Shown: positions 6,015 through 20,942, counted from the first letter of the stretch. The stretch is 28,675 nt of DNA from a virus (IMGVR_UViG_3300030118_000820:1-28675); one strand, 5' to 3'. Notes: generated from the letters alone by a model not told the origin. Translations and numbers: made by a program.

Positions 6015-7349
6015 GTGAAAAACATAATTGAAGCTAGAGATAGTAAAGTTGCTGAACTTGATCAATTAGTTGAAGAACTTGACACAATGGACGCTGGTGA
6101 AGAATTTGACGCAAAATTTGCGCGATCACAAGAACTACATGGTGAAATCAAGGAACTTAACGGAAAAATTGATGAAGCAAGGGAACTAAACGAAACTCTT
6201 GAAGCAGTTAAAGAAAGCAGAAATGCTTTAGGTGTGGAAGATGAAGATCTTAGCGAAAAAGAAGCTATTGTTGAAGTCAATGAGCCAGATATGTACAGAA
6301 AGGGTGGCGAACACTCATTTTTGGCAGACGCTTATGCCGCTAGACAAGGTGACTATAAAGCACAAGAAAGAGTTAACTCACACCAAGAATATGAAGCTAG
6401 AGATATTGGAACAGGCGCATTTGCTGGGCTAGTTGTTCCACAATACCTTGTTGACGAATACGCACCAATTGCACGTGCTGGATCTGCACTTTATAACGCA
6501 GTTCCTAAAAAGCCATTACCGGCTTACGGCATGAAAGTGGAAGTGTCCAGAATTACTACTGGATCTGCCGCCGCAGTTCAAGCGTCACAAAACAGTGCAG
6601 TTCAAGAAACAAACATGGACGATACTTTATTGACAGTTAATGTTGATACAGTAGCTGGCCAACAAGATGTTTCAAGACAAGCATTAGAGCGTGGTGGTCA
6701 ACCGGGCTTTAGTTTAGAAAACATCATTTTCGGTGACTTAGTTGCCGCATATTATGGTGAATTAGATAGATTGTTATTTGAGGGATCTGGATCTTCTGGA
6801 CAACCTTTAGGTATCAGAAACGTATCTGGAATAAACACAGTAACTTATACAGACGCAAGTCCAACAGTTGCTGAGGCATTTCCTAAGTTAGCAGACGCAG
6901 TACAAAAAGTTAATGCAAATAGATTTGCACCAGCTACTGCAATACTAATGCACCCAAGACGTTGGGGTTTCTTCACTGCTGGACTTGACAGTTCTAACAG
7001 ACCGTTAATTGTTCCACAAGGAAACAACCCAGACAATCCAATGGGCATTGGTGAAGCCGCTTCCTATGGAAACGTTGTTGGAAACCTACTTGGTATTCCA
7101 GTAATTACAGACGCCAACATTACAACTTCTGACGGTGGTGGAAATGACCAAGATCAGATCTATGTAATCAAAGTTGACGATCATATCTTATTTGAAGATA
7201 ATTTAATGCAGTTGAAGTTTGAAGAAACAAATGCTGGATCATTAACAACAAAAATGGTTGTTTATGGTTACAACGCATTTGCTTCTGGAAGATACCCAGC
7301 TGGCATGACAAAAATACAAGGAACTGGTTTAATTACACCTAGTTTCTAA
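6015..7349 (+). CDS. major capsid protein (HK97 fold)
   Basis: This protein builds the icosahedral shell. Residues 1-85 are a charged coiled-coil delta domain, the built-in scaffold that the protease removes. Residues from about 130 on carry the HK97 fold: GTGAFAGLVVPQYL, a long E-loop region around YGMKVEVSRITTGSAAAVQAS, then the spine and A domain with AAYYGELDRLLFEGSGS and QPLGIRN, and LMHPRRWGF further on. The length (444) is typical for an uncleaved precursor. The start is GTG, chosen because it follows AAAAGGAAAT at the right distance and begins the coiled coil. It follows the protease gene, as expected. A stable hairpin sits just after its stop. Confidence 0.96.
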   Translation: MKNIIEARDSKVAELDQLVEELDTMDAGEEFDAKFARSQELHGEIKELNGKIDEARELNETLEAVKESRNALGVEDEDLSEKEAIVEVNEPDMYRKGGEHSFLADAYAARQGDYKAQERVNSHQEYEARDIGTGAFAGLVVPQYLVDEYAPIARAGSALYNAVPKKPLPAYGMKVEVSRITTGSAAAVQASQNSAVQETNMDDTLLTVNVDTVAGQQDVSRQALERGGQPGFSLENIIFGDLVAAYYGELDRLLFEGSGSSGQPLGIRNVSGINTVTYTDASPTVAEAFPKLADAVQKVNANRFAPATAILMHPRRWGFFTAGLDSSNRPLIVPQGNNPDNPMGIGEAASYGNVVGNLLGIPVITDANITTSDGGGNDQDQIYVIKVDDHILFEDNLMQLKFEETNAGSLTTKMVVYGYNAFASGRYPAGMTKIQGTGLITPSF

Positions 7350-11114: not shown

Positions 11115-12539
11115 ATGGTAAAAATTAATCGTGAAGCAGTCATTAGCATTATTGGTAATGTTGACGGATTAGTTAAAGGCATTACACGTGGACAACGTGC
11201 ATTACAAGGTTTTGGCAAAGTTGCTGGTGGTATAGCCAAAGTAGGTGCAACTGCTATTGCTGGGCTTGGTGTTGCCGCTGGTACAGTTGGCAAAGAAATG
11301 GTCAACCTTGCTTCTAGTGCAAAGGAAGCTGGATCTGCATTTGACGTTGTTTTTGGAACTGGTGAAAGTGGTCAACAACTAAACGCTTTTGTTGAAGAAT
11401 TTGCAAACAAAGCTGGTATGGCCAATTTTGAATTGCAAGATCTTCTTAAAACAACTGGTCAAGTTGTACAATCTGTTGGATTTACTGCTGAAGAAAGTGC
11501 CAAACTTGGTGAAGAACTAGCAATTGTTGCTGGTGACGTAGCGGCATTTAATAACGTTCAAGGTGGTGCAACACCAGTTATGCAAGCATTTACCAAAGCA
11601 TTATTAGGTGAACGTGAAAGTCTAAAAACTTACGGTATAACAATTATGGAAGCAGATGTGCAAACACAAGCATTTGCAATGACTGGTAAAGAAAACGCAA
11701 AACAACTTACCCAGCAAGAAAAAGCAATGGCCACTTTAGAATTAATTAAAAAACGGTCATTAGTCACACAAGGTTATTTAAATGCAGAACAAGAAAGTTT
11801 TGCGGCCAAATCAAATGAAGCACGTGCAAAGCTAACTGAACTTAAAGCAACAATGGGTGAAGAATTACTGCCTATTGCAGAAGCATTGTTACCAGTTATT
11901 GTTGATCTGGTACAAGAGATCGGCCCGCAATTAGTTGGTGCAATTCAAGCAGTAGCACCATTTGTATCTGCTATTGGTCAATTGATATCACAACTTGCGC
12001 CACCAATATTAACAATCGTATCACTATTGCTGACAATGCTAGCGCCAGCATTTAGAAAGTTTACAGAAATAGTTGAAAAACATATAACACCGTTTTTAGT
12101 TAACTTACCTAAAAACTTTGAAAAAATGATAAATGCAATAATTAATGGATTTAATAGATTTGCAGATAAATTAAACAGTTTTGCAGAAAAAGCGCAAAAC
12201 ATTTTGGGCAAAATAGGAATTAAATTAGATATACCAAAACTAAGAAAGTTTGAAAATATTAGTTTAGGTTTTGCCGAAAAAGAAGTTAAAAGATTAACAC
12301 CAGATGAAATAGACGCACAAAGGGAAGCTGACGCATTACTTGCAAGAGTACCGTCAAGCAACTTTGCTGGTGCTGGTAGGCGATCAGATTTGAACGTAAC
12401 TATGAATATAAACGGTGGTGGCAATCCAGACGAAGTTGCTAGAAAAACTGCTGAAGAATTGAAGAAGTTTACTGATAAAAATGGAACACTAGGGCGTGTT
12501 GGTATCGGTGGTGGTGGATCTGGGGTTGTCATAGTCTAA
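11115..12539 (+). CDS. tape measure protein (short)
   Basis: The tape measure fills the tail tube, sets its length and takes part in DNA entry. This 474-residue version has the family signature: a Gly/Ala-rich hydrophobic start (FGKVAGGIAKVGATAIAGLG), the conserved block EAGSAFDVVFGTGESGQQLN through LGEELAIVAGDVAAFNNVQGG (about 70-150), then LLGERESLKTYGI (160s), and two hydrophobic spans (LLPVIVDLVQEIGPQLVGAI and ILTIVSLLLTMLAPAFRKF, about 260-320). At about 1.5 angstrom per residue it predicts a tail near 70 nm, at the short end for siphoviruses. The C-terminal 60 residues are Gly-rich. It overlaps the tail-tip gene by one base (TAATG). Confidence 0.93.
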   Translation: MVKINREAVISIIGNVDGLVKGITRGQRALQGFGKVAGGIAKVGATAIAGLGVAAGTVGKEMVNLASSAKEAGSAFDVVFGTGESGQQLNAFVEEFANKAGMANFELQDLLKTTGQVVQSVGFTAEESAKLGEELAIVAGDVAAFNNVQGGATPVMQAFTKALLGERESLKTYGITIMEADVQTQAFAMTGKENAKQLTQQEKAMATLELIKKRSLVTQGYLNAEQESFAAKSNEARAKLTELKATMGEELLPIAEALLPVIVDLVQEIGPQLVGAIQAVAPFVSAIGQLISQLAPPILTIVSLLLTMLAPAFRKFTEIVEKHITPFLVNLPKNFEKMINAIINGFNRFADKLNSFAEKAQNILGKIGIKLDIPKLRKFENISLGFAEKEVKRLTPDEIDAQREADALLARVPSSNFAGAGRRSDLNVTMNINGGGNPDEVARKTAEELKKFTDKNGTLGRVGIGGGGSGVVIV

Positions 12540-13816: not shown

Positions 13817-14695
13817 ATGGCATTATCTGGATATAAAGAATTTGCAACTGGTGAAGTTTTAACTGCTTCTGACGTTAATGCGTATTTAATGCAAGCGATC
13901 ATGGTTTTTGCTGATAGTAGCGCAAGGGATAGTGGTATTGCAAGCGCCAAACGTGAAGAAGGGCAATTTGTATTTCTAAAAGATACCAATACGCTACAAT
14001 TTTATGACGGATCTGCTTTCGTAAATTTTATTGGGGACGGTGATATTACTGGTGTCACTGCTGGAACTGCATTATCTGGTGGTGGTACTTCTGGCGCAGT
14101 CACACTAAATGTTGACATAAACAGTGCTTCTTCTGGAACAGTTGCCAGTGCTGATGAAATATTAATTGCTGATGTTTCTGATAGTAATAATATTAAAAAG
14201 GTAACTGCACAAACTGTTGCTGATTTAGCTTCTGTAACTGCATTAACTACAAATGTAACTGTTAAAGTAGCTGATGACGGTAGTGGTAGCCAAAACGTAT
14301 TTTATTTTTTAAGTGGATCTGACACTGGTGCTGGCACTAAATCTTCTGCATTTGATATTTATTTTGGTATGAAAATTAAGTTTGATTTATCAGATAGTTC
14401 ACTTGCTACACACAATTTTAAATTTTCTACAACACAAGACGGTACGCACAATTCTGGATCAGAATTTACTACAAACGTAACTACGTCTGGTACACCCGGT
14501 AGCGCTAACGCATTTGTGCAATTAGAAGTGACACCAGAAACAATGGGTACTGCAACTGCAACTGGATCTACGATTGAAACTTTATATTATTATTGTTCAA
14601 ATCATGCTGGTATGGGTGGTAATGGTAGATTAAGTTTGTACCCAGCGGCCGCTTCTGCTGGGGTAAGTTTGGGATTAGTATTAGCATTAAGCTAG
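13817..14695 (+). CDS. tail-tip or fibre protein with cupredoxin-like C-terminal domain
   Basis: The first 75 residues (EFATGEVLTASDVNAYLMQA ... GQFVFLKDTNTLQFYDG) are the widespread marine-phage tail fibre start. Residues 78-110 (GVTAGTALSGGGTSGAVTLN) are a fibre shaft repeat often seen in such proteins. The C-terminal 100 residues look like a cupredoxin: H199 in THNFKF, then YYYCSNHAGMGG with C260, H263 and M266, spaced as type-1 copper ligands. Whether copper is bound is unknown; such domains recur in marine phage structural proteins. It follows the tail hub gene and precedes the spike cassettes. The last residues (AGVSLGLVLALS) are hydrophobic. Confidence 0.7.
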   Translation: MALSGYKEFATGEVLTASDVNAYLMQAIMVFADSSARDSGIASAKREEGQFVFLKDTNTLQFYDGSAFVNFIGDGDITGVTAGTALSGGGTSGAVTLNVDINSASSGTVASADEILIADVSDSNNIKKVTAQTVADLASVTALTTNVTVKVADDGSGSQNVFYFLSGSDTGAGTKSSAFDIYFGMKIKFDLSDSSLATHNFKFSTTQDGTHNSGSEFTTNVTTSGTPGSANAFVQLEVTPETMGTATATGSTIETLYYYCSNHAGMGGNGRLSLYPAAASAGVSLGLVLALS

Positions 14696-14712: not shown

Positions 14713-15039
14713 ATGCCGGATACGCTTCATAGTGTTCAAGGAGTTCTAGGAACTTCTGCTGGTGATATTGTTGACGCAGTACCGTCATCAACAACTGAAA
14801 CTGTTATTGGTATATTATTATCAAACGTAAGTTCCAGTAGTGCTGATGTTACAGTTGATCTAAGTGTTACAAAATCTGGTGGATCATTAAGACACATTTT
14901 AAATGATGTATCTTTACCATTTGGAACAACAATAGAAATAACAACTAAGATCACCTTAGAAACTGGGGACAAGTTACAGGGGTTATGTTCAGCGGCTTCA
15001 AGTGCTGAATATAACGTATCATTTTTGCGTCAAACCTAA
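14713..15039 (+). CDS. small beta-rich virion protein (tail-tip accessory)
   Basis: The 108 residues are Ser/Thr-rich with regular beta segments (TETVIGILLSNVSSSSADVT, PFGTTIEITTKITLETGDKL, YNVSFLRQT). The alternation of a receptor-like first half and the stretch TLETGDKLQGLCSAAS recall small phage tail or decoration proteins of the sandwich type, but no named family is certain. It sits inside the tail-tip cluster, with an AGAAAGGA ribosome-binding site 12 nt upstream, and is probably a virion component. Confidence 0.6.
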   Translation: MPDTLHSVQGVLGTSAGDIVDAVPSSTTETVIGILLSNVSSSSADVTVDLSVTKSGGSLRHILNDVSLPFGTTIEITTKITLETGDKLQGLCSAASSAEYNVSFLRQT

Positions 15040-15050
15040 GGGGGTAATTT

Positions 15051-15641
15051 ATGGCCTACATAGGTGCGCAACCACAAAATGTAAAACAGAATATTGGCTT
15101 ATACACACCAAGTGACATATTAAGATTGACAAAAGACGGTCATTGGGGTGGTAGCTTAGATTTAATACAATCACAATCTGTAAGTGGTGCGGCTACATGT
15201 AATTTTACAAATATTCAAGGTGCAAAATATGATGTACATCTTTTGCAATTAGATGATATAGATACTGCAAGCACTTTTTATACAGAACTAAGATTGTCTA
15301 ATGACGGTGGAAGTAGTTTTGAAACATCTAGTTATCATAGATCAATACAATATGGTGGAACAAATAGTGGTTTTGGTGTAAATAATAGCACAAGTGCAGA
15401 TAGATTTACCATATTGGGACACTCTAGGGGCATAAGCCATTATGTTTATTTGTATTCTTTAAATAATTCATCACAATATAGTTATATTACACATCAAAGC
15501 GCCCCAGCAAACATTTATATGTATTTTGGTAGTGGTGCTTATGCAGTTGCTGAAAAAATAGACGCAATTCAACTTTTGAACAGTGCTGGATCTAATTTTT
15601 CAAGGGGTACTGCAACTTTGTTTGGGATTAAAGATATATGA
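15051..15641 (+). CDS. spike cassette 1, gene A (anchor plus variable domain)
   Basis: The 196-residue protein has two parts. Residues 1-40 form an N-terminal segment (YIGAQPQNVKQNIGLYTPSD, then ILRLT) that is shared with the gene at 16686 and looks like a virion attachment anchor. The rest is a Ser/Gly/Tyr-rich beta domain starting KYDVHLLQLDDIDTASTFY and closing GTATLFGIKD, a closing pattern repeated in all six proteins of this region. It is first in a triplet (15051, 15638, 16172) that recurs at 16686-18336. Probable role: receptor-binding tip protein. It overlaps the next gene by 4 nt (ATGA) and has an AAGGGGGT ribosome-binding site. Confidence 0.6.
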   Translation: MAYIGAQPQNVKQNIGLYTPSDILRLTKDGHWGGSLDLIQSQSVSGAATCNFTNIQGAKYDVHLLQLDDIDTASTFYTELRLSNDGGSSFETSSYHRSIQYGGTNSGFGVNNSTSADRFTILGHSRGISHYVYLYSLNNSSQYSYITHQSAPANIYMYFGSGAYAVAEKIDAIQLLNSAGSNFSRGTATLFGIKDI

Positions 15642-16171
15642 GCAATTTAAGATTAATAAATTCAACTGAAATAACTTCTGCCGTTAATTCAGTTAACATT
15701 ACAGATGTATTTACAGATGATTTTGATATTTACAAAGTAGTCGGTGTTGATATAGCCATGACTAATGGTGGGGGCGATTATTTATATGGTAGATTAATAA
15801 ACAGTAGTGGTAATGAAATAACTTCTGATTATGATTATGTTTCTGGCTACATCAATAGTGGTGGTAGTACAATGACAAAAGAATTTGGATCAAATAAAAC
15901 AGAGTGGGAAAGTTTGAATTATATTGGTGCTGGTACAAATGATATTGGAAGCATTACAATGTATATATTTAATCCAACAGATCCCCAATCATACACATTT
16001 TATATACTGCAAGGAAGTTCCTTTAGAACACCTAGCACAATTAATTATATGTGGAAAGGAATTGGCGTTTTAAAAAATTTAGGAACTATCAAAGGCATAC
16101 AATTTTCTGCTAAAACTGGAAATATGGACAGTGCTAAATTTCGTATATACGGCATAAGGGTTGATGAATAA
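15638..16171 (+). CDS. spike cassette 1, gene B
   Basis: The 177-residue protein lacks the N-terminal anchor and starts directly with the shared beta domain (LRLINSTEITSAVNSVNI, then FDIYKVVGVDIA). It ends with AKFRIYGIRVDE, matching the family ending (hydrophobic, F or Y, G, I/V/K). It lies between A and C of the first triplet with an ATGA overlap upstream and direct stop-start contact downstream, so the three are made together, possibly as parts of one heteromeric tip. No catalytic motif is visible. Receptor binding is inferred from position and composition. Confidence 0.55.
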   Translation: MSNLRLINSTEITSAVNSVNITDVFTDDFDIYKVVGVDIAMTNGGGDYLYGRLINSSGNEITSDYDYVSGYINSGGSTMTKEFGSNKTEWESLNYIGAGTNDIGSITMYIFNPTDPQSYTFYILQGSSFRTPSTINYMWKGIGVLKNLGTIKGIQFSAKTGNMDSAKFRIYGIRVDE

Positions 16172-16684
16172 ATGGCATTAGTACAAGTACAAACAACAAC
16201 AGTAACATCTGCAACTGGTTATGTAGATTTAATTGGTACAACCACTGATGATGTTTACATGATTGCATTTAATAATGTTCAACCAACAATTGACAATACA
16301 CAACTTATTTGCAGAGTGTTAGTTTCATCAAGCCCAGATACTTCTGCTAATTATGATCGTGCGGCAATACAATTTCTTGCTGGTGGTAGTGGTGCTAATA
16401 ATCAATATAATACAAATGAAACTTTTACATATATATCTGGTGCGCAATCTGGCACAAATACAAGTGAAACAAATCAAGGTATTTTATATTTATATAATTT
16501 TAATAATTCAAGTGAATTTACATATGCAGTAATTGATCCAGTAAATAGAAATGCAAGTGGTACTTTGTATGGCATGCAGGGCGGTTGGGTGCATACCGTA
16601 GCCCAAAGTTGCAACGGTCTTAGGATTTATTATTCAAGTGGTAATATAGCAAAAGGAACGTTTACGCTTTTTAAGCAGGTTTGA
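16172..16684 (+). CDS. spike cassette 1, gene C
   Basis: The 170-residue protein is the clear counterpart of the gene at 17815. Both contain SPDTS-(A/S)-NYDRA (about residue 55-70) and YL-(Y/F)-NFNN-(S/A)-SE-(F/Y), followed by NRN and a QGG motif. It closes with GTFTLFKQV. It has no separate anchor. It follows gene B with adjoining stop and start codons (TAAATG) and is followed 1 nt later by the second cassette. The likely role is tail-tip receptor binding. Confidence 0.55.
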   Translation: MALVQVQTTTVTSATGYVDLIGTTTDDVYMIAFNNVQPTIDNTQLICRVLVSSSPDTSANYDRAAIQFLAGGSGANNQYNTNETFTYISGAQSGTNTSETNQGILYLYNFNNSSEFTYAVIDPVNRNASGTLYGMQGGWVHTVAQSCNGLRIYYSSGNIAKGTFTLFKQV

Positions 16685-16685
16685 T

Positions 16686-17309
16686 ATGAGTAGTGAATTT
16701 GGATATATACCAGAAAGCCCAGAACAAAGTTTTCAAAATAACAAAGGGATCTTTACACCTACTGATATTTATGATTTAACAAGAGCAGATAAATATACTA
16801 ACTATGGACAATTAGAATTAATTGAAACTAAAACTGCAAGTAGTGATAGTGCAATTGATTTTACTTCTATTGATGAAACAAAATACAATGTTCATTTTAT
16901 GACATTAACTATTACAGATTTATCTTCTGCTGATTATTTAGGAATTAGGTTTTTTGAAAATGGTACTATAAATACTTCTACTGTTTATCAAGAAAGTTTC
17001 CAAAATTGTCAAGCTAATGGTACATTTAATACAGTAGCAGCTACTAGAAATCAAATTATAACTACTCAAAGCAATGCAATAAATTCTTCTACTTGTTTAT
17101 ATATTATTTTTTACAATTTAGGGGATAATACAAAATATAAACATATAGAGGGTAACAGTTTGGGATTTCACACTACAGGAAGTCATTTTAATTCATATTA
17201 TGGAATAGGAGTTTTTCCACAAACTACACAAGTAGATGGTATAAGAATATTTGGTAATCTTGGTAATATGACAGGCACACTATCTTTATATGGAATTAGG
17301 TACTCATAA
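16686..17309 (+). CDS. spike cassette 2, gene A'
   Basis: The 207-residue protein repeats the layout of the gene at 15051: N-terminal anchor (YIPESPEQ, then GIFTPTDIYDLT, residues 21-32) followed by the beta domain (KYNVHFMTLTITDLSSADYL) and the ending GTLSLYGIRYS. Beyond the anchor and general pattern the sequence has diverged strongly, as expected for receptor-binding parts. DNA use differs from the rest of the window: it carries GCAGC (17037) and GATGG (17234), two words otherwise nearly absent, and only one GATC. It overlaps the next start by one base (TAATG). Confidence 0.55.
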   Translation: MSSEFGYIPESPEQSFQNNKGIFTPTDIYDLTRADKYTNYGQLELIETKTASSDSAIDFTSIDETKYNVHFMTLTITDLSSADYLGIRFFENGTINTSTVYQESFQNCQANGTFNTVAATRNQIITTQSNAINSSTCLYIIFYNLGDNTKYKHIEGNSLGFHTTGSHFNSYYGIGVFPQTTQVDGIRIFGNLGNMTGTLSLYGIRYS

Positions 17310-17815
17310 TGGCAACTTCTTTACAATTTATAAAATCTGCAAGTGCTAGTGGTGGTGTAAGTACATTAGATATTTCAAACTGTTTTTCAGCACAATATGA
17401 TGTATATGAATTGCTTATAACAAAAGTAGATACTGCTTCAAATTTTTATCCAAGTTTTAGATTATTAAAAGAAAGTGACGGAAGTGCAGATACAACTTCA
17501 AATTATGATAGTGCAGGTTTATTATTTGGACTTTCTGGCACATCAGAAATTAGATATGTTAACCAAACATCAATGATAAACAGTTTTGGTTTAGCTAGTA
17601 CAAATGACGCCAATAATTTTGGTAGACTTACTATTTATCAACCATTTTCGGGATCTAGTTACACTTTTTTACAGGGACAAGCTGCACATTTTTATTCTGC
17701 ACTAGAGGGTGGTAAAACAATTGGAGTTCATAAAGTTGAACAATCAAATTCTGGCATACAACTTATGTTTTCTAATATGACATTAGTTCAAGCAAGTATA
17801 TATGGGGTTGAATAG
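17309..17815 (+). CDS. spike cassette 2, gene B'
   Basis: The 168-residue protein is in the B position of the second triplet: no anchor, a start resembling the common domain (LQFIKSASASGGVSTLDISN, then QYDVYELLITKV), and the ending QASIYGVE. Similarity to B of the first triplet is weak outside these points. It contains GCTGC (17690), one of few such words in the window. The stop shares one base with the GTG start of C' (TAGTG). Confidence 0.55.
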   Translation: MATSLQFIKSASASGGVSTLDISNCFSAQYDVYELLITKVDTASNFYPSFRLLKESDGSADTTSNYDSAGLLFGLSGTSEIRYVNQTSMINSFGLASTNDANNFGRLTIYQPFSGSSYTFLQGQAAHFYSALEGGKTIGVHKVEQSNSGIQLMFSNMTLVQASIYGVE

Positions 17816-18336
17816 TGGCAGGTAGCTTAATAAAAATAGATGAAGAAATAGTTACATCAGGAGTAGCAAGTGTAACTCTTGGTGGCAGTAATTGGGATAA
17901 TTCTTATGATGTATATATGGTGCAAGTAATAAATGTTGCTACTGATACTGATGCACAGGGTTTAAGATTTAGATTTACTGTTAGTGGAAGTCCAGACACA
18001 TCAAGCAATTATGATAGAGCTTTTAAAAACCTAAGAGCAGATAGTGCTTTTAGTGATATTAATTATACAAACCAAGCTGAACTTGATTTAGGAAATATTG
18101 GAACAGGCACACAAGAAGTTGCCAATGCTAAACAATATTTATTTAATTTTAATAATGCAAGTGAATATTCTTTTTGTACTGTTGAAGCAAGTAATAGAAA
18201 TAATAATAGTAATTTAAGGGGGTTTCAAGGTGGTGGAACTTTGAAAGAAACTCAATTAACAGACGGTGTTCATTATTTTATGGCAAGTGGCAACATATCT
18301 AGTGGTATATTTAAGTTATATGGTTATAAGAAGTAA
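17815..18336 (+). CDS. spike cassette 2, gene C'
   Basis: The 173-residue protein starts at GTG and is the paralogue of the gene at 16172, sharing SGSPDTSSNYDRA, YLFNFNNASEY and FQGGG at equivalent positions, and closing GIFKLYGYKK. It ends the second triplet and the tail-tip block. It contains GATGC (17949), a word otherwise missing from the window, and no GATC, unlike most neighbours. That points to separate recent origin of this cassette. Likely role: tail-tip receptor binding. Confidence 0.55.
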   Translation: MAGSLIKIDEEIVTSGVASVTLGGSNWDNSYDVYMVQVINVATDTDAQGLRFRFTVSGSPDTSSNYDRAFKNLRADSAFSDINYTNQAELDLGNIGTGTQEVANAKQYLFNFNNASEYSFCTVEASNRNNNSNLRGFQGGGTLKETQLTDGVHYFMASGNISSGIFKLYGYKK

Positions 18337-18394: not shown

Positions 18395-18733
18395 ATGGCA
18401 ATTAAAACAATTGAAGAATTTAGAACTGAAGCTACAACAGAAATAAATGCAAAGAAAACTGAAAATGGTGGTGACGGTATGTTTGCGCAAGTAAATAACG
18501 AAAGACGTGAATTTACAGACGCAGAATACGATCAAGCAATAGAAGATCTTGCACAATCTAAATTAGATGAACAAGATAATGGTTATAAAAGAGCTAGACA
18601 AGGCGAATATCCAGCTTTACCAGAACAGTTTGACTTACTGTATAAAGACATGTTAGCTGATAAAGGTGATAAAAATGGTGAGTGGTTTAAGGCAATCAAA
18701 AAGGTAAAAGACGATAATCCTAAACCAAGCTAA
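18395..18733 (+). CDS. tail-fibre-associated chaperone-like protein
   Basis: The 112-residue, highly charged protein ends with a pattern common to small phage tail assembly chaperone-like proteins that follow fibre genes: R-x-x-EYPALPEQFDLLYKDM, then a helix with WFKAIKKVKDDNPKP. The N-terminal half is helical (IKTIEEFRTEATTEINAKKT). It follows directly after the spike cassettes, the usual position, and would help fold or mount the fibres. It overlaps the next start by one base (TAATG). Confidence 0.6.
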   Translation: MAIKTIEEFRTEATTEINAKKTENGGDGMFAQVNNERREFTDAEYDQAIEDLAQSKLDEQDNGYKRARQGEYPALPEQFDLLYKDMLADKGDKNGEWFKAIKKVKDDNPKPS

Positions 18734-18921
18734 TGTCTACAAATGGCTTTACGCAAAAAGAATTACTAAATTTAATTCTTGAAAATCAACAAATCATTGA
18801 TCGCAAAATTTCAGAAGTCCACGAAAGATTAAATCAACGTCCAACACGTATGGAAATTTTTGGGTGGTTGACAATAACAATAGCAAGTTTTGGTGCAATA
18901 TTTAACAGTATAATGTCTTAG
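18733..18921 (+). CDS. small one-span membrane protein (XhlA-like layout)
   Basis: The 62-residue protein has a polar amphipathic helix (KELLNLILENQQIIDRKISE, then VHERLNQRP, about 9-38) followed by one C-terminal hydrophobic span (MEIFGWLTITIASFGAIFNS, about 40-59). This is the layout of XhlA-type haemolysin/holin accessory proteins. It lies two genes ahead of another small membrane protein and upstream of the endolysin, so it may be part of lysis timing. Its stop shares one base with the next GTG start (TAGTG). Function is inferred from layout alone. Confidence 0.55.
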   Translation: MSTNGFTQKELLNLILENQQIIDRKISEVHERLNQRPTRMEIFGWLTITIASFGAIFNSIMS

Positions 18922-20942
18922 TGCTGACAAGATATTTACACAAATTCAATACAATATGCAGATTATTTTTAGTTGGTTTGTTATTTTATCCAATGCCAAT
19001 TTATGCTGATCATGTCCCAACACAACCACCTTATGATCAATCAATAGCACTAGATAATTCAACTGGTGATCTTACAATTGGTATATATTCTTCTGACGGT
19101 TTTGAAGATAGTCCACCAGAAAAATATACAATATTTTTTACGATCAGTGATAGCACGATTGATACAACTACATCATTTTGTGTATCTACTTCATTTGGAC
19201 ATGGGACAAACTTAACTTGGCAATATCACGTTTTTTCTTTAGAAGATTTACAATATTACTTTGAAGATCCATACGGTACATTTAGAACAAAGATCAGATC
19301 AGATAATGATACAGACAACAGTTTTAGTACACTTACGGCAGAACAAACAATAACAATACCTAATCAATTACCATTTACTAATCTTGGTGAGTGGACTGCA
19401 CCAACTGACACTTGCAATGATACATCTACTACAACAACTACAACATCTACAACCACCACAACATCTACTACAACTACTTTGCCACCAGATACAACAACTA
19501 CAAGTTCTAGCACAACTACAAGTTCTACAACTACAAGTTCTACAACTACAAGTTCTACAACTACAACTACAACTACAACTACAACACTTCCACCACCACC
19601 ACCCCCACCACCAACAACTACAACAACACTTGCGCCAGTGATTGTAACAATAGGTGGTGAAGAAGTTGAGTACACCCAAGAAGAATTAAATGACGGAACA
19701 ATTGAACGTGATCAAGAAAGATCAGATAATGAAGAAATATATGGTTGCTACATGACTAATGCACAAATAGAACGTGGTGACTGTTTTGACATAGAAGAAG
19801 AAACAGAAGAAGAAGTTATTATAATATTAGAAGATGACAAAAAAACAGACGATACCGAAAAAGAATTTTTTGATGATGATGATGTGGTATTTGATGTGGA
19901 AGATGAAGATGACATTAAAAATCTTGATGAAAAAGTAATTGATCTTGAAACACTAGAAGAAGAAATAATTATTGAGATAGAAGAAGATCTTGACTTAACA
20001 GAAGAAGAAAAACAAGAACTTATAGAAGTAATAAAAGATATACAAGAAACAGATTTTGAAGAATTTGTTATTGAAGAAGATGAAATAGTTTTTGACGAAA
20101 TAATTATTATTATTGAAGAAGATGAAGAAGAAATATTTGAAGATGATAAACCTATTGATGAAATCAAAGATGATCAACAAGATCTGGAAGAAGATACACA
20201 AGAAGTCGTGGCAACGATACCAATATTGGTTGAAGATGTAGAAGAAGAATTTACAGAAGAAGAAATAATAGTTTTTGTTGAAGAAGCTGAAGAAGCTATT
20301 GAAGAAATAATTAGTATTGAAGAAGTTGTAGAAATATTAGATCAAGAAGAATTAGAAGAATTATCAGAAGAAGAATTAATTGAGTACGAAGAAGAAGTAG
20401 AAGAAAAAATTATTGAAGCAGTAAAAGAACTGCCAGTTGAAGAAAAAGTAGCAGTTGTAGAAGAAGTTGCAAAAGTATCTGTACAAAACCTTGCAGTTGC
20501 AGATAAACAAACACAAACAGTTGTGCAAGCAGTTGTTACAGAAGTTGTACAACCAGAAGTTATAGAAACATTAGACGAAACACAAAAAGAAGCAGTTGCA
20601 GAAGTTCTTGGTGTAGAAGAAACAAATGACGTAGAGATTATTGCAGAACAAGCAAAGAAAGATGACAATATAAATATTGCAGTCCAAGAATACGTAGAAC
20701 GTGCAACAGAAAACGCAGACGTTGAAAATTATTCCGTCAGTAATTCAATCGTGGAAGTACAAGTAGAACAGTTCTTTGAAGATCCGATAGGACAACTAAC
20801 TGATATTGATCTTTCCGATATAGTATTATCAGATATTGGTAGTGATATGACGCAATCAAGCAAAGACAATGCCAAGAAAACGGTAGTGCCAGTGATCATT
20901 GTAAGTCAGATCATAGCAACACCATTTACAAGAAGATTTTAA
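18921..20942 (+). CDS. secreted Thr-linker, Glu/Asp-rich surface protein
   Basis: The 673-residue protein starts at GTG with a clear signal peptide: basic start, hydrophobic core and an IYA-D site (cut after residue 29). Residues 30-165 are a folded, beta-like domain with two cysteines. Residues about 167-240 are a Thr/Ser linker ending in a run of prolines, encoded by DNA repeats. Residues about 245-510 are extremely acidic, built from loose repeats of EE-hydrophobic-hydrophobic patterns such as EEIIIEIEEDLDLTEEEK. Residues 520-640 are a more ordinary Val/Glu-rich helical part, and the end (VVPVIIVSQIIATPF, RRF) is a hydrophobic stretch with basic end, a possible membrane anchor. Such Thr-rich linkers are common in secreted actinobacterial proteins. 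No enzyme motif is visible. It lies between the tail and lysis genes; exclusion of other phages, surface display or a fibre are possible roles. Confidence 0.7.
   Translation: MLTRYLHKFNTICRLFLVGLLFYPMPIYADHVPTQPPYDQSIALDNSTGDLTIGIYSSDGFEDSPPEKYTIFFTISDSTIDTTTSFCVSTSFGHGTNLTWQYHVFSLEDLQYYFEDPYGTFRTKIRSDNDTDNSFSTLTAEQTITIPNQLPFTNLGEWTAPTDTCNDTSTTTTTTSTTTTTSTTTTLPPDTTTTSSSTTTSSTTTSSTTTSSTTTTTTTTTTLPPPPPPPPTTTTTLAPVIVTIGGEEVEYTQEELNDGTIERDQERSDNEEIYGCYMTNAQIERGDCFDIEEETEEEVIIILEDDKKTDDTEKEFFDDDDVVFDVEDEDDIKNLDEKVIDLETLEEEIIIEIEEDLDLTEEEKQELIEVIKDIQETDFEEFVIEEDEIVFDEIIIIIEEDEEEIFEDDKPIDEIKDDQQDLEEDTQEVVATIPILVEDVEEEFTEEEIIVFVEEAEEAIEEIISIEEVVEILDQEELEELSEEELIEYEEEVEEKIIEAVKELPVEEKVAVVEEVAKVSVQNLAVADKQTQTVVQAVVTEVVQPEVIETLDETQKEAVAEVLGVEETNDVEIIAEQAKKDDNINIAVQEYVERATENADVENYSVSNSIVEVQVEQFFEDPIGQLTDIDLSDIVLSDIGSDMTQSSKDNAKKTVVPVIIVSQIIATPFTRRF
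19512..19590 (+). repeat. tandem repeats encoding the Thr/Ser linker
   Basis: Three perfect copies of the 15-bp unit ACAACTACAAGTTCT (19512, 19527, 19542) are followed by a run of the 6-bp unit ACAACT. They encode Thr-Thr-Ser-Ser-type repeats. Perfect tandem copies are prone to slipped-strand length change in steps of whole codons, so linker length may vary between relatives without breaking the frame. Confidence 0.85.

Follow-up and report, generated by a model that had tools for sequence, protein, structure and literature searches.

Do the six consecutive related genes in the tail module of this virus form a three-part unit that is present twice, and what would such a unit do? The window, that is the whole stretch of DNA analyzed here (28,675 nucleotides, IMGVR_UViG_3300030118_000820:1-28675), is a 28.7-kb virus record with a G+C content of 35% and a late region of the siphovirus type, which codes for terminase, portal, capsid protease and capsid, major tail protein, tape measure and tail proteins. 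The six genes occupy positions 15,051 to 18,336 and lie inside the tail module after the short tape measure gene (11115-12539), in the place expected for receptor-binding proteins. An initial annotation of the sequence had described them as a tandemly duplicated three-gene cassette and had suggested a heteromeric receptor-binding complex. We compared the six genes with each other, with predicted structures and with relatives in other phages.

Six Paralogs in the Tail Module

All six genes are encoded on the plus strand, follow each other nearly spacer-free and are mutually homologous. The first triplet consists of the anchored A1 (15051..15641, 196 aa), the anchorless second subunit B1 (15638..16171, 177 aa), which overlaps A1 by 4 bases, and the anchorless third subunit C1 (16172..16684, 170 aa). 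The second triplet consists of the anchored A2 (16686..17309, 207 aa) and the anchorless second and third subunits B2 (17309..17815, 168 aa) and C2 (17815..18336, 173 aa), with overlaps of 1 base between A2 and B2 and of 1 base between B2 and C2. Each assignment is based on the open reading frame and a profile of the family, together with the positional clade A for A1, trees for B1, C1 and B2, a tree and an AlphaFold2 model for A2 and an AlphaFold2 model for C2.

The common beta domain claimed for the six consecutive genes is in line with the pairwise comparison, in which all six proved homologous with shuffle z values mostly between 9 and 31; the weakest values (3.6-5.8) belong to genes 1 and 2 and to gene 4 against genes 2, 3 and 5. 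Genes 3 and 6 are indeed the closest pair (37% identity, E 5e-31), and genes 1 and 4 share 29% identity (E 3e-22). Furthermore, the N-terminal anchor is exclusive to genes 1 and 4, as had been noticed, and consists of an extension of about 34-41 aa with the motif (Y/F)TP(S/T)DIxxLT. In detail, A1 has a type I anchor at residues 1-33 with YIGAQPQNVKQNIGLYTPSDILRLTKDG, followed by the lectin-like domain at 34-194, and A2 has a type II anchor at 1-40 and the domain at 41-205. Two other claims hold in part. The short closing motif was found as aromatic-Gly-(I/V/Y) in five of the six proteins, and gene 3 ends with ...LFKQV. The double occurrence of the triplet is visible within the window for the A and C pairs, but not for the middle genes 2 and 5, which are not mutual best matches: the best match of gene 2 inside the window is gene 6, and that of gene 5 is gene 1. 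We therefore base the correspondence of B1 and B2 on the tree with relatives, which places genes 2 and 5, and not on identity within the window.

PHROG 14820 matched residues 3-171 of C2 (E 3.7e-8) and a part of B1 (6e-5), and A1, C1, A2 and B2 had no match to it. No Pfam or NCBIfam family reached its cut-off for any of the six proteins, and PF07484, the gp37-like collar, gave no match in any of them at E up to 1.

Upstream of the triplets a fibre-like tail protein (13817..14695, plus strand; PHROG 693 tail fiber, E 1e-9) and a 108-aa protein (14713..15039, plus strand; weak match to PHROG 1276) are encoded, and neither gene is homologous to the six paralogs. According to the neighbourhood table, the 108-aa gene is located directly before first-type triplets with YLGTQP-like anchors in the relatives and lone triplets with MPLGAARFGLLGG anchors are not preceded by it; its product may be an adapter. 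The last C gene is followed by the gene of a 112-aa protein (18395..18733 in the window, plus strand; neighbourhood table and PHROG matches), and this also applies to almost all relatives whose downstream flank is present. This is the position of the tail assembly chaperone in cultured SAR11 phages, where three isolates have PF16778; the 112-aa protein itself has no chaperone match and matches only PHROGs of unknown function. Further downstream, positions 18921-20942 code for a protein of 673 aa, which has a signal-like start, runs of Thr/Pro and a Glu/Asp-rich region of great length; in many relatives, matches to it are located downstream of the triplets. An A-B-C-A-B-C run flanked by the same genes as in the window, both upstream and downstream, is also present in a single-cell or MAG contig (CACMQN010000011.1), whose label Candidatus Actinomarina hints at a marine actinobacterial host.

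Predicted Fold

AlphaFold2 models of two of the six proteins, A2 (pLDDT 84) and C2 (pLDDT 96), have an identical order of strands; in the model of A2, the anchor is disordered at residues 1-20 and has a helix at 25-33. The nearest solved folds of both models are GH32 C-terminal sandwiches, galectins, L-type lectins and a carbohydrate module of a phage Dit protein, with middling matches (Z about 6.5-8.9, rmsd 3-4.5 Å over about 110-138 residues). The products of genes 4 and 6 thus agree in strand order as well as in structural neighbours and do not have unrelated folds. Judged from these two models and their middling matches, the six paralogs would share one all-beta, lectin-like fold. The sandwich predicted for them resembles that of galectins, L-type lectins and the GH32 C-terminal domain, but has no detectable sequence similarity to these proteins. 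No solved structure was detected by sequence search, and Foldseek against the PDB returned no E below 0.001.

Among predicted viral structures (BFVD), the same domain was found in fibres whose annotation includes collagen or lambda Stf repeats, which favours a trimeric head without demonstrating it. Such long fibres, and also gp39 of HTVC034P, have the same predicted fold as a terminal head; unlike the triplet proteins, they consist of one polypeptide and are presumably homotrimeric. The HTVC034P protein (357 aa, positions 6037-7110 of its locus) starts with MAYIGKEP, ends with a distantly related version of the domain and adjoins the three-gene set of this phage. Within the domain, the stretches 44-56, 88-102 and 129-133 are hypervariable and are likely binding loops. 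Gene position together with fold points to a tail location and a receptor-binding role of the triplet products, and the heads may bind glycans.

Gene Order and Gene Number in Relatives

Viral contig scans, one genome scan and five annotated phage regions gave 320 further loci (321 in the sample); this sample was drawn by similarity to the family, and its counts are not a survey of all phages. A single-sequence scan with A1 detected one relative, and alignment-based scans were needed. Profiles for the classes A, B and C assigned 1290 ORFs, and as some loci overlap on one contig, counts are given for non-redundant sequences.

The genes are arranged as A-B-C or A-B-C-A-B-C with very few exceptions, and not in a random order. 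The neighbour pairs comprise 203 AB, 217 BC and 87 CA, and six pairs depart from this order: five were found in cultured SAR11 phages, which belong to another subfamily, and one in L223, a contig whose frames are broken. Both single and multiple triplets, for which a search had been suggested, were found: of the complete runs that lie away from contig ends, 38 are ABCABC and 30 are ABC. Other runs in environmental contigs are limited to L223, L053, where the first A gene is missing, and L215. The seemingly missing A protein of L215 has a normal type II anchor and a head too diverged for the profile, and the adjoining B and C are equally diverged; the second triplet of this contig (4402-6044) keeps its type II anchor, with all three heads replaced by far-diverged versions. 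Exactly 3 or 6 copies are present in 19 of the 24 whole records, and several of the others run across contig ends. The A and B genes of relatives overlap mostly by 1 or 4 bases and the B and C genes by 1 base. Two contigs (L013 and L042) carry two triplets with other genes between them, one of 317-324 aa, which indicates that triplets need not be adjacent.

Phylogeny of the Domains

In domain-only trees, a single branch separates each of the classes A, B and C from all other sequences (support 95/94, 100/100 and 100/96, respectively), which argues for a duplication of the triplet as a block. Within each class the members of first and second triplets intermix, so the A-B-C order predates or accompanies the block duplication.

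Three consecutive genes with the same domain are also known from the tail region of the SAR11 phages HTVC010P (gp30-32), HTVC019P (gp45-47) and HTVC034P (gp37-35), where they belong to PHROG 14820 of unknown function and are followed by the tail assembly chaperone (PF16778). In contrast to the triplets described here, all three members of these trios carry an N-terminal extension, the phages are of other types, and the trio forms a separate clade together with gp4 of the Lederberg phage (100/99). A positional orthology of the three SAR11 genes with A, B and C was rejected (AU p 0.0005, 0.0004 and 7e-6). Therefore, the set of three arose at least twice or was homogenized in one line.

Exchange of Single Subunits

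In genomes with two triplets, the distances of subunits inside each triplet are correlated (rho 0.32-0.55, with at most 1 of 2000 permutations as high), and no distance correlation was found between the triplets; the value is 0.08 for C1 and A2, which are a few bases apart. Correlation of triplet distances with flanking genes is absent or weak (rho -0.22 to 0.14). Among the 117 triplet pairs with a subunit in common at at least 75%, 107 have only this one at at least 60%, indicating that subunits move singly while the identity of the triplet stays. Such single exchange rules out the co-transfer of whole triplets as the source of the correlation within triplets, which we read as shared sublineage or compatibility.

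A Patch That Follows the Triplet Type

For the analysis of triplet identity, 185 non-redundant complete triplets were grouped by their anchor. Type I triplets stand at the first position and have a YLGTQP-like anchor, type II triplets stand at the second position and have YGYIPE...NNKGIFTP, and type III triplets are lone and have MPLGAARFGLLGG; the sorting rule also places in type II a few lone triplets whose anchors are unusual. Positions separating type I from types II and III cluster on the first strand, at 30-32, at 140 and on the last strand. The resulting patch comprises about nine positions (4, 6, 7, 9, 10, 30, 32, 140 and 167 in C2 numbering), which were chosen on the same data apart from a split-half check, where the selection was stable for most of them. 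Positions 9, 10, 30 and 167 are among the top 16 in all three classes, compared to 0.16 expected.

Mapped by homologous position on the plus strand, the patch of A1 consists of S35, D37, L38, Q40 and S41 on the first strand (15153..15173) and of K59 (15225), D61 (15231), S161 (15531) and T189 (15615). The corresponding residues are Q42, E44, L45, E47 and T48 (16809..16829), K66 (16881), N68 (16887), I174 (17205) and S200 (17283) in A2, and S4, I6, K7, D9 and E10 (17824..17844), S30 (17902), D32 (17908), G140 (18232) and K167 (18313) in C2.

The patch is nearly fixed inside one triplet type and differs between first- and second-type triplets. In 181 of the 185 triplets, A, B and C have concordant patch scores, and in the other four the scores are discordant. 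The nearest neighbour by body is of the same type for 117 (A), 158 (B) and 143 (C) of 185 proteins, where about 98 are expected by chance; by the nine-residue patch these numbers are 180, 185 and 184. The domain outside the patch is exchanged subunit by subunit, even across types. In close cross-type pairs with bodies 70-95% identical, patch identity is 0.31-0.37, compared to 0.82-0.86 in same-type pairs. We identified 14 independent cross-type transfers (8 of A, 1 of B and 5 of C), in which the patch goes with the slot and not with the body. In detail, positions 4, 10, 140, 167 and 171 differ in 8 of 8 A transfers and in 1-6 of 24 same-type controls, and positions 7, 8, 9, 10, 170 and 171 differ in 5 of 5 C transfers and rarely in the controls; the single B transfer has a patch mismatch of 6/9, not far above the rest of the domain. 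The A proteins of L066 and L131, with bodies 93% identical, differ mainly at scattered patch positions, for which one crossover is insufficient, so these residues were reset to the slot. The C proteins of L054 and L188 form a further natural pair in which the bodies are almost alike and the patches are of opposite type. In the window, the body of C2 is 80% identical to the body in the C1 slot of L007, and the first strand and the patch differ.

Across anchor types, position 4 of A covaries with positions 3 and 6 of B (S with SR, Q with TQ or TE, K with GE), which makes these residues a candidate A-B contact on grounds of covariation. Mean-field couplings between A and B, B and C, and C and A peak on one homologous patch, far above plain shuffles. 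As a source of contacts they were rejected: the signal survives shuffling within the triplet type and couplings within a type are not above shuffles. Therefore, no contacts are claimed from couplings and the transfer analysis was used instead. The antisymmetric part of the couplings gave no consistent cyclic direction.

Discussion

The two triplets probably represent two separate three-part attachment heads of the sugar-binding type. We propose that each A-B-C triplet would form one receptor-binding head of the siphovirus tail, in which three lectin-like subunits combine to a single heteromer that is held on the tail by the lone anchor on A, with a 1:1:1 heterotrimer as the most likely form. 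The patch, which comprises the first and last strands and residues nearby, would be the mutual recognition surface of A, B and C, and with both heads made together, its two versions would stop subunits of the first and second triplet from mixing. The rest of the surface with its hypervariable loops would bind host glycans, and recombination of the bodies between phages, one subunit per event, would make six semi-independent specificities combinable. We consider this account as a whole, with a heteromeric head per triplet, a single anchor, the patch as interface and shuffled bodies, to have somewhat better than an even chance. Its stricter form, an obligate heterotrimeric head of three paralogs in two copies with an orthogonal interface code of about nine residues and six bodies shuffled singly, is put forward tentatively, at rather less than even odds. 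The heteromeric reading receives indirect support from the gene number of three or six, from the patch common to A, B and C and from the analogy to a virophage heterotrimer; the stoichiometry, the interface and the location of the heads on the virion are inferred. The frequent exchange of single subunits counts against it, as the interface of a heteromer would have to be tolerant.

The patch could also serve for docking to a type-specific tail platform, so that A, B and C would be separate homotrimeric or monomeric heads side by side. Its position on the N- and C-terminal strands of the domain, beside the anchor linker in A, would suit such docking, as would the 108-aa gene at 14713 that goes with first-type triplets, and in the Lederberg phage, with its single copy, the domain must work without paralogs. 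However, a platform code tied to the anchor is at odds with the type III lone triplets, where a very different anchor is combined with a nearly type II patch, and the lack of an anchor on B and C as well as gene numbers of three or six also speak against separate heads, which we regard as unlikely at roughly one chance in four. Lower still, at about one chance in ten, we place ordinary tandem duplicates that serve as a reservoir of alternative receptor binders and keep their order only by descent. The bodies recombine freely, as expected for a variable host-recognition locus, and similar islands with lectin-like and C1q-like genes are involved in host recognition in marine phages (PMC3909814), but descent alone explains neither the reset of the patch to the slot type at scattered positions including 140 and 167 nor the three or six genes in intact runs with so few exceptions. 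That only A is part of the virion, with B and C as assembly helpers or decoys, would fit the anchor being confined to A; we judge it very improbable, since B and C share the domain family of A and are as variable as A, which is not expected for helpers, and since in the cultured SAR11 phages all three members are extended at the N-terminus.

By its behaviour, the nearest known system to the heteromeric heads favoured here is the tripartite tail of Dishui Lake virophage 2 (DSLV2), where three consecutive paralogous tail genes form positional clades across relatives, as they do here, receptor binding has been proposed and a 1:1:1 heterotrimer is supported by co-expression and native PAGE (PMC12724248). 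The DSLV2 proteins come from a virophage and have a T4 gp37-like fold with a PF07484 collar, whereas the proteins of this tailed phage have a predicted lectin-like sandwich without a Pfam match; as the gp37-like fold and the collar are absent, they are not members of that family. Two triplets per genome, one anchored subunit and two patch codes are further differences to DSLV2. A literature search for such trios, with most subscription journals outside its scope, found no description of these genes, and the triplet-identity patch is new here.

Phage receptor-binding tips are usually regarded as homotrimers. If true, a heterotrimeric tip with slot-wise exchange would account for the way in which common marine phages vary their host recognition without breaking assembly. 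The natural transfers reveal residues that would separate two paralogous complexes and thereby allow a direct test of how complexes remain distinct after duplication. Furthermore, a trio with this domain is present in HTVC010P, an abundant SAR11 phage, and is annotated there as hypothetical. A heterotrimer with an interface code and shuffled bodies would, if true, constitute a combinatorial host-recognition system.
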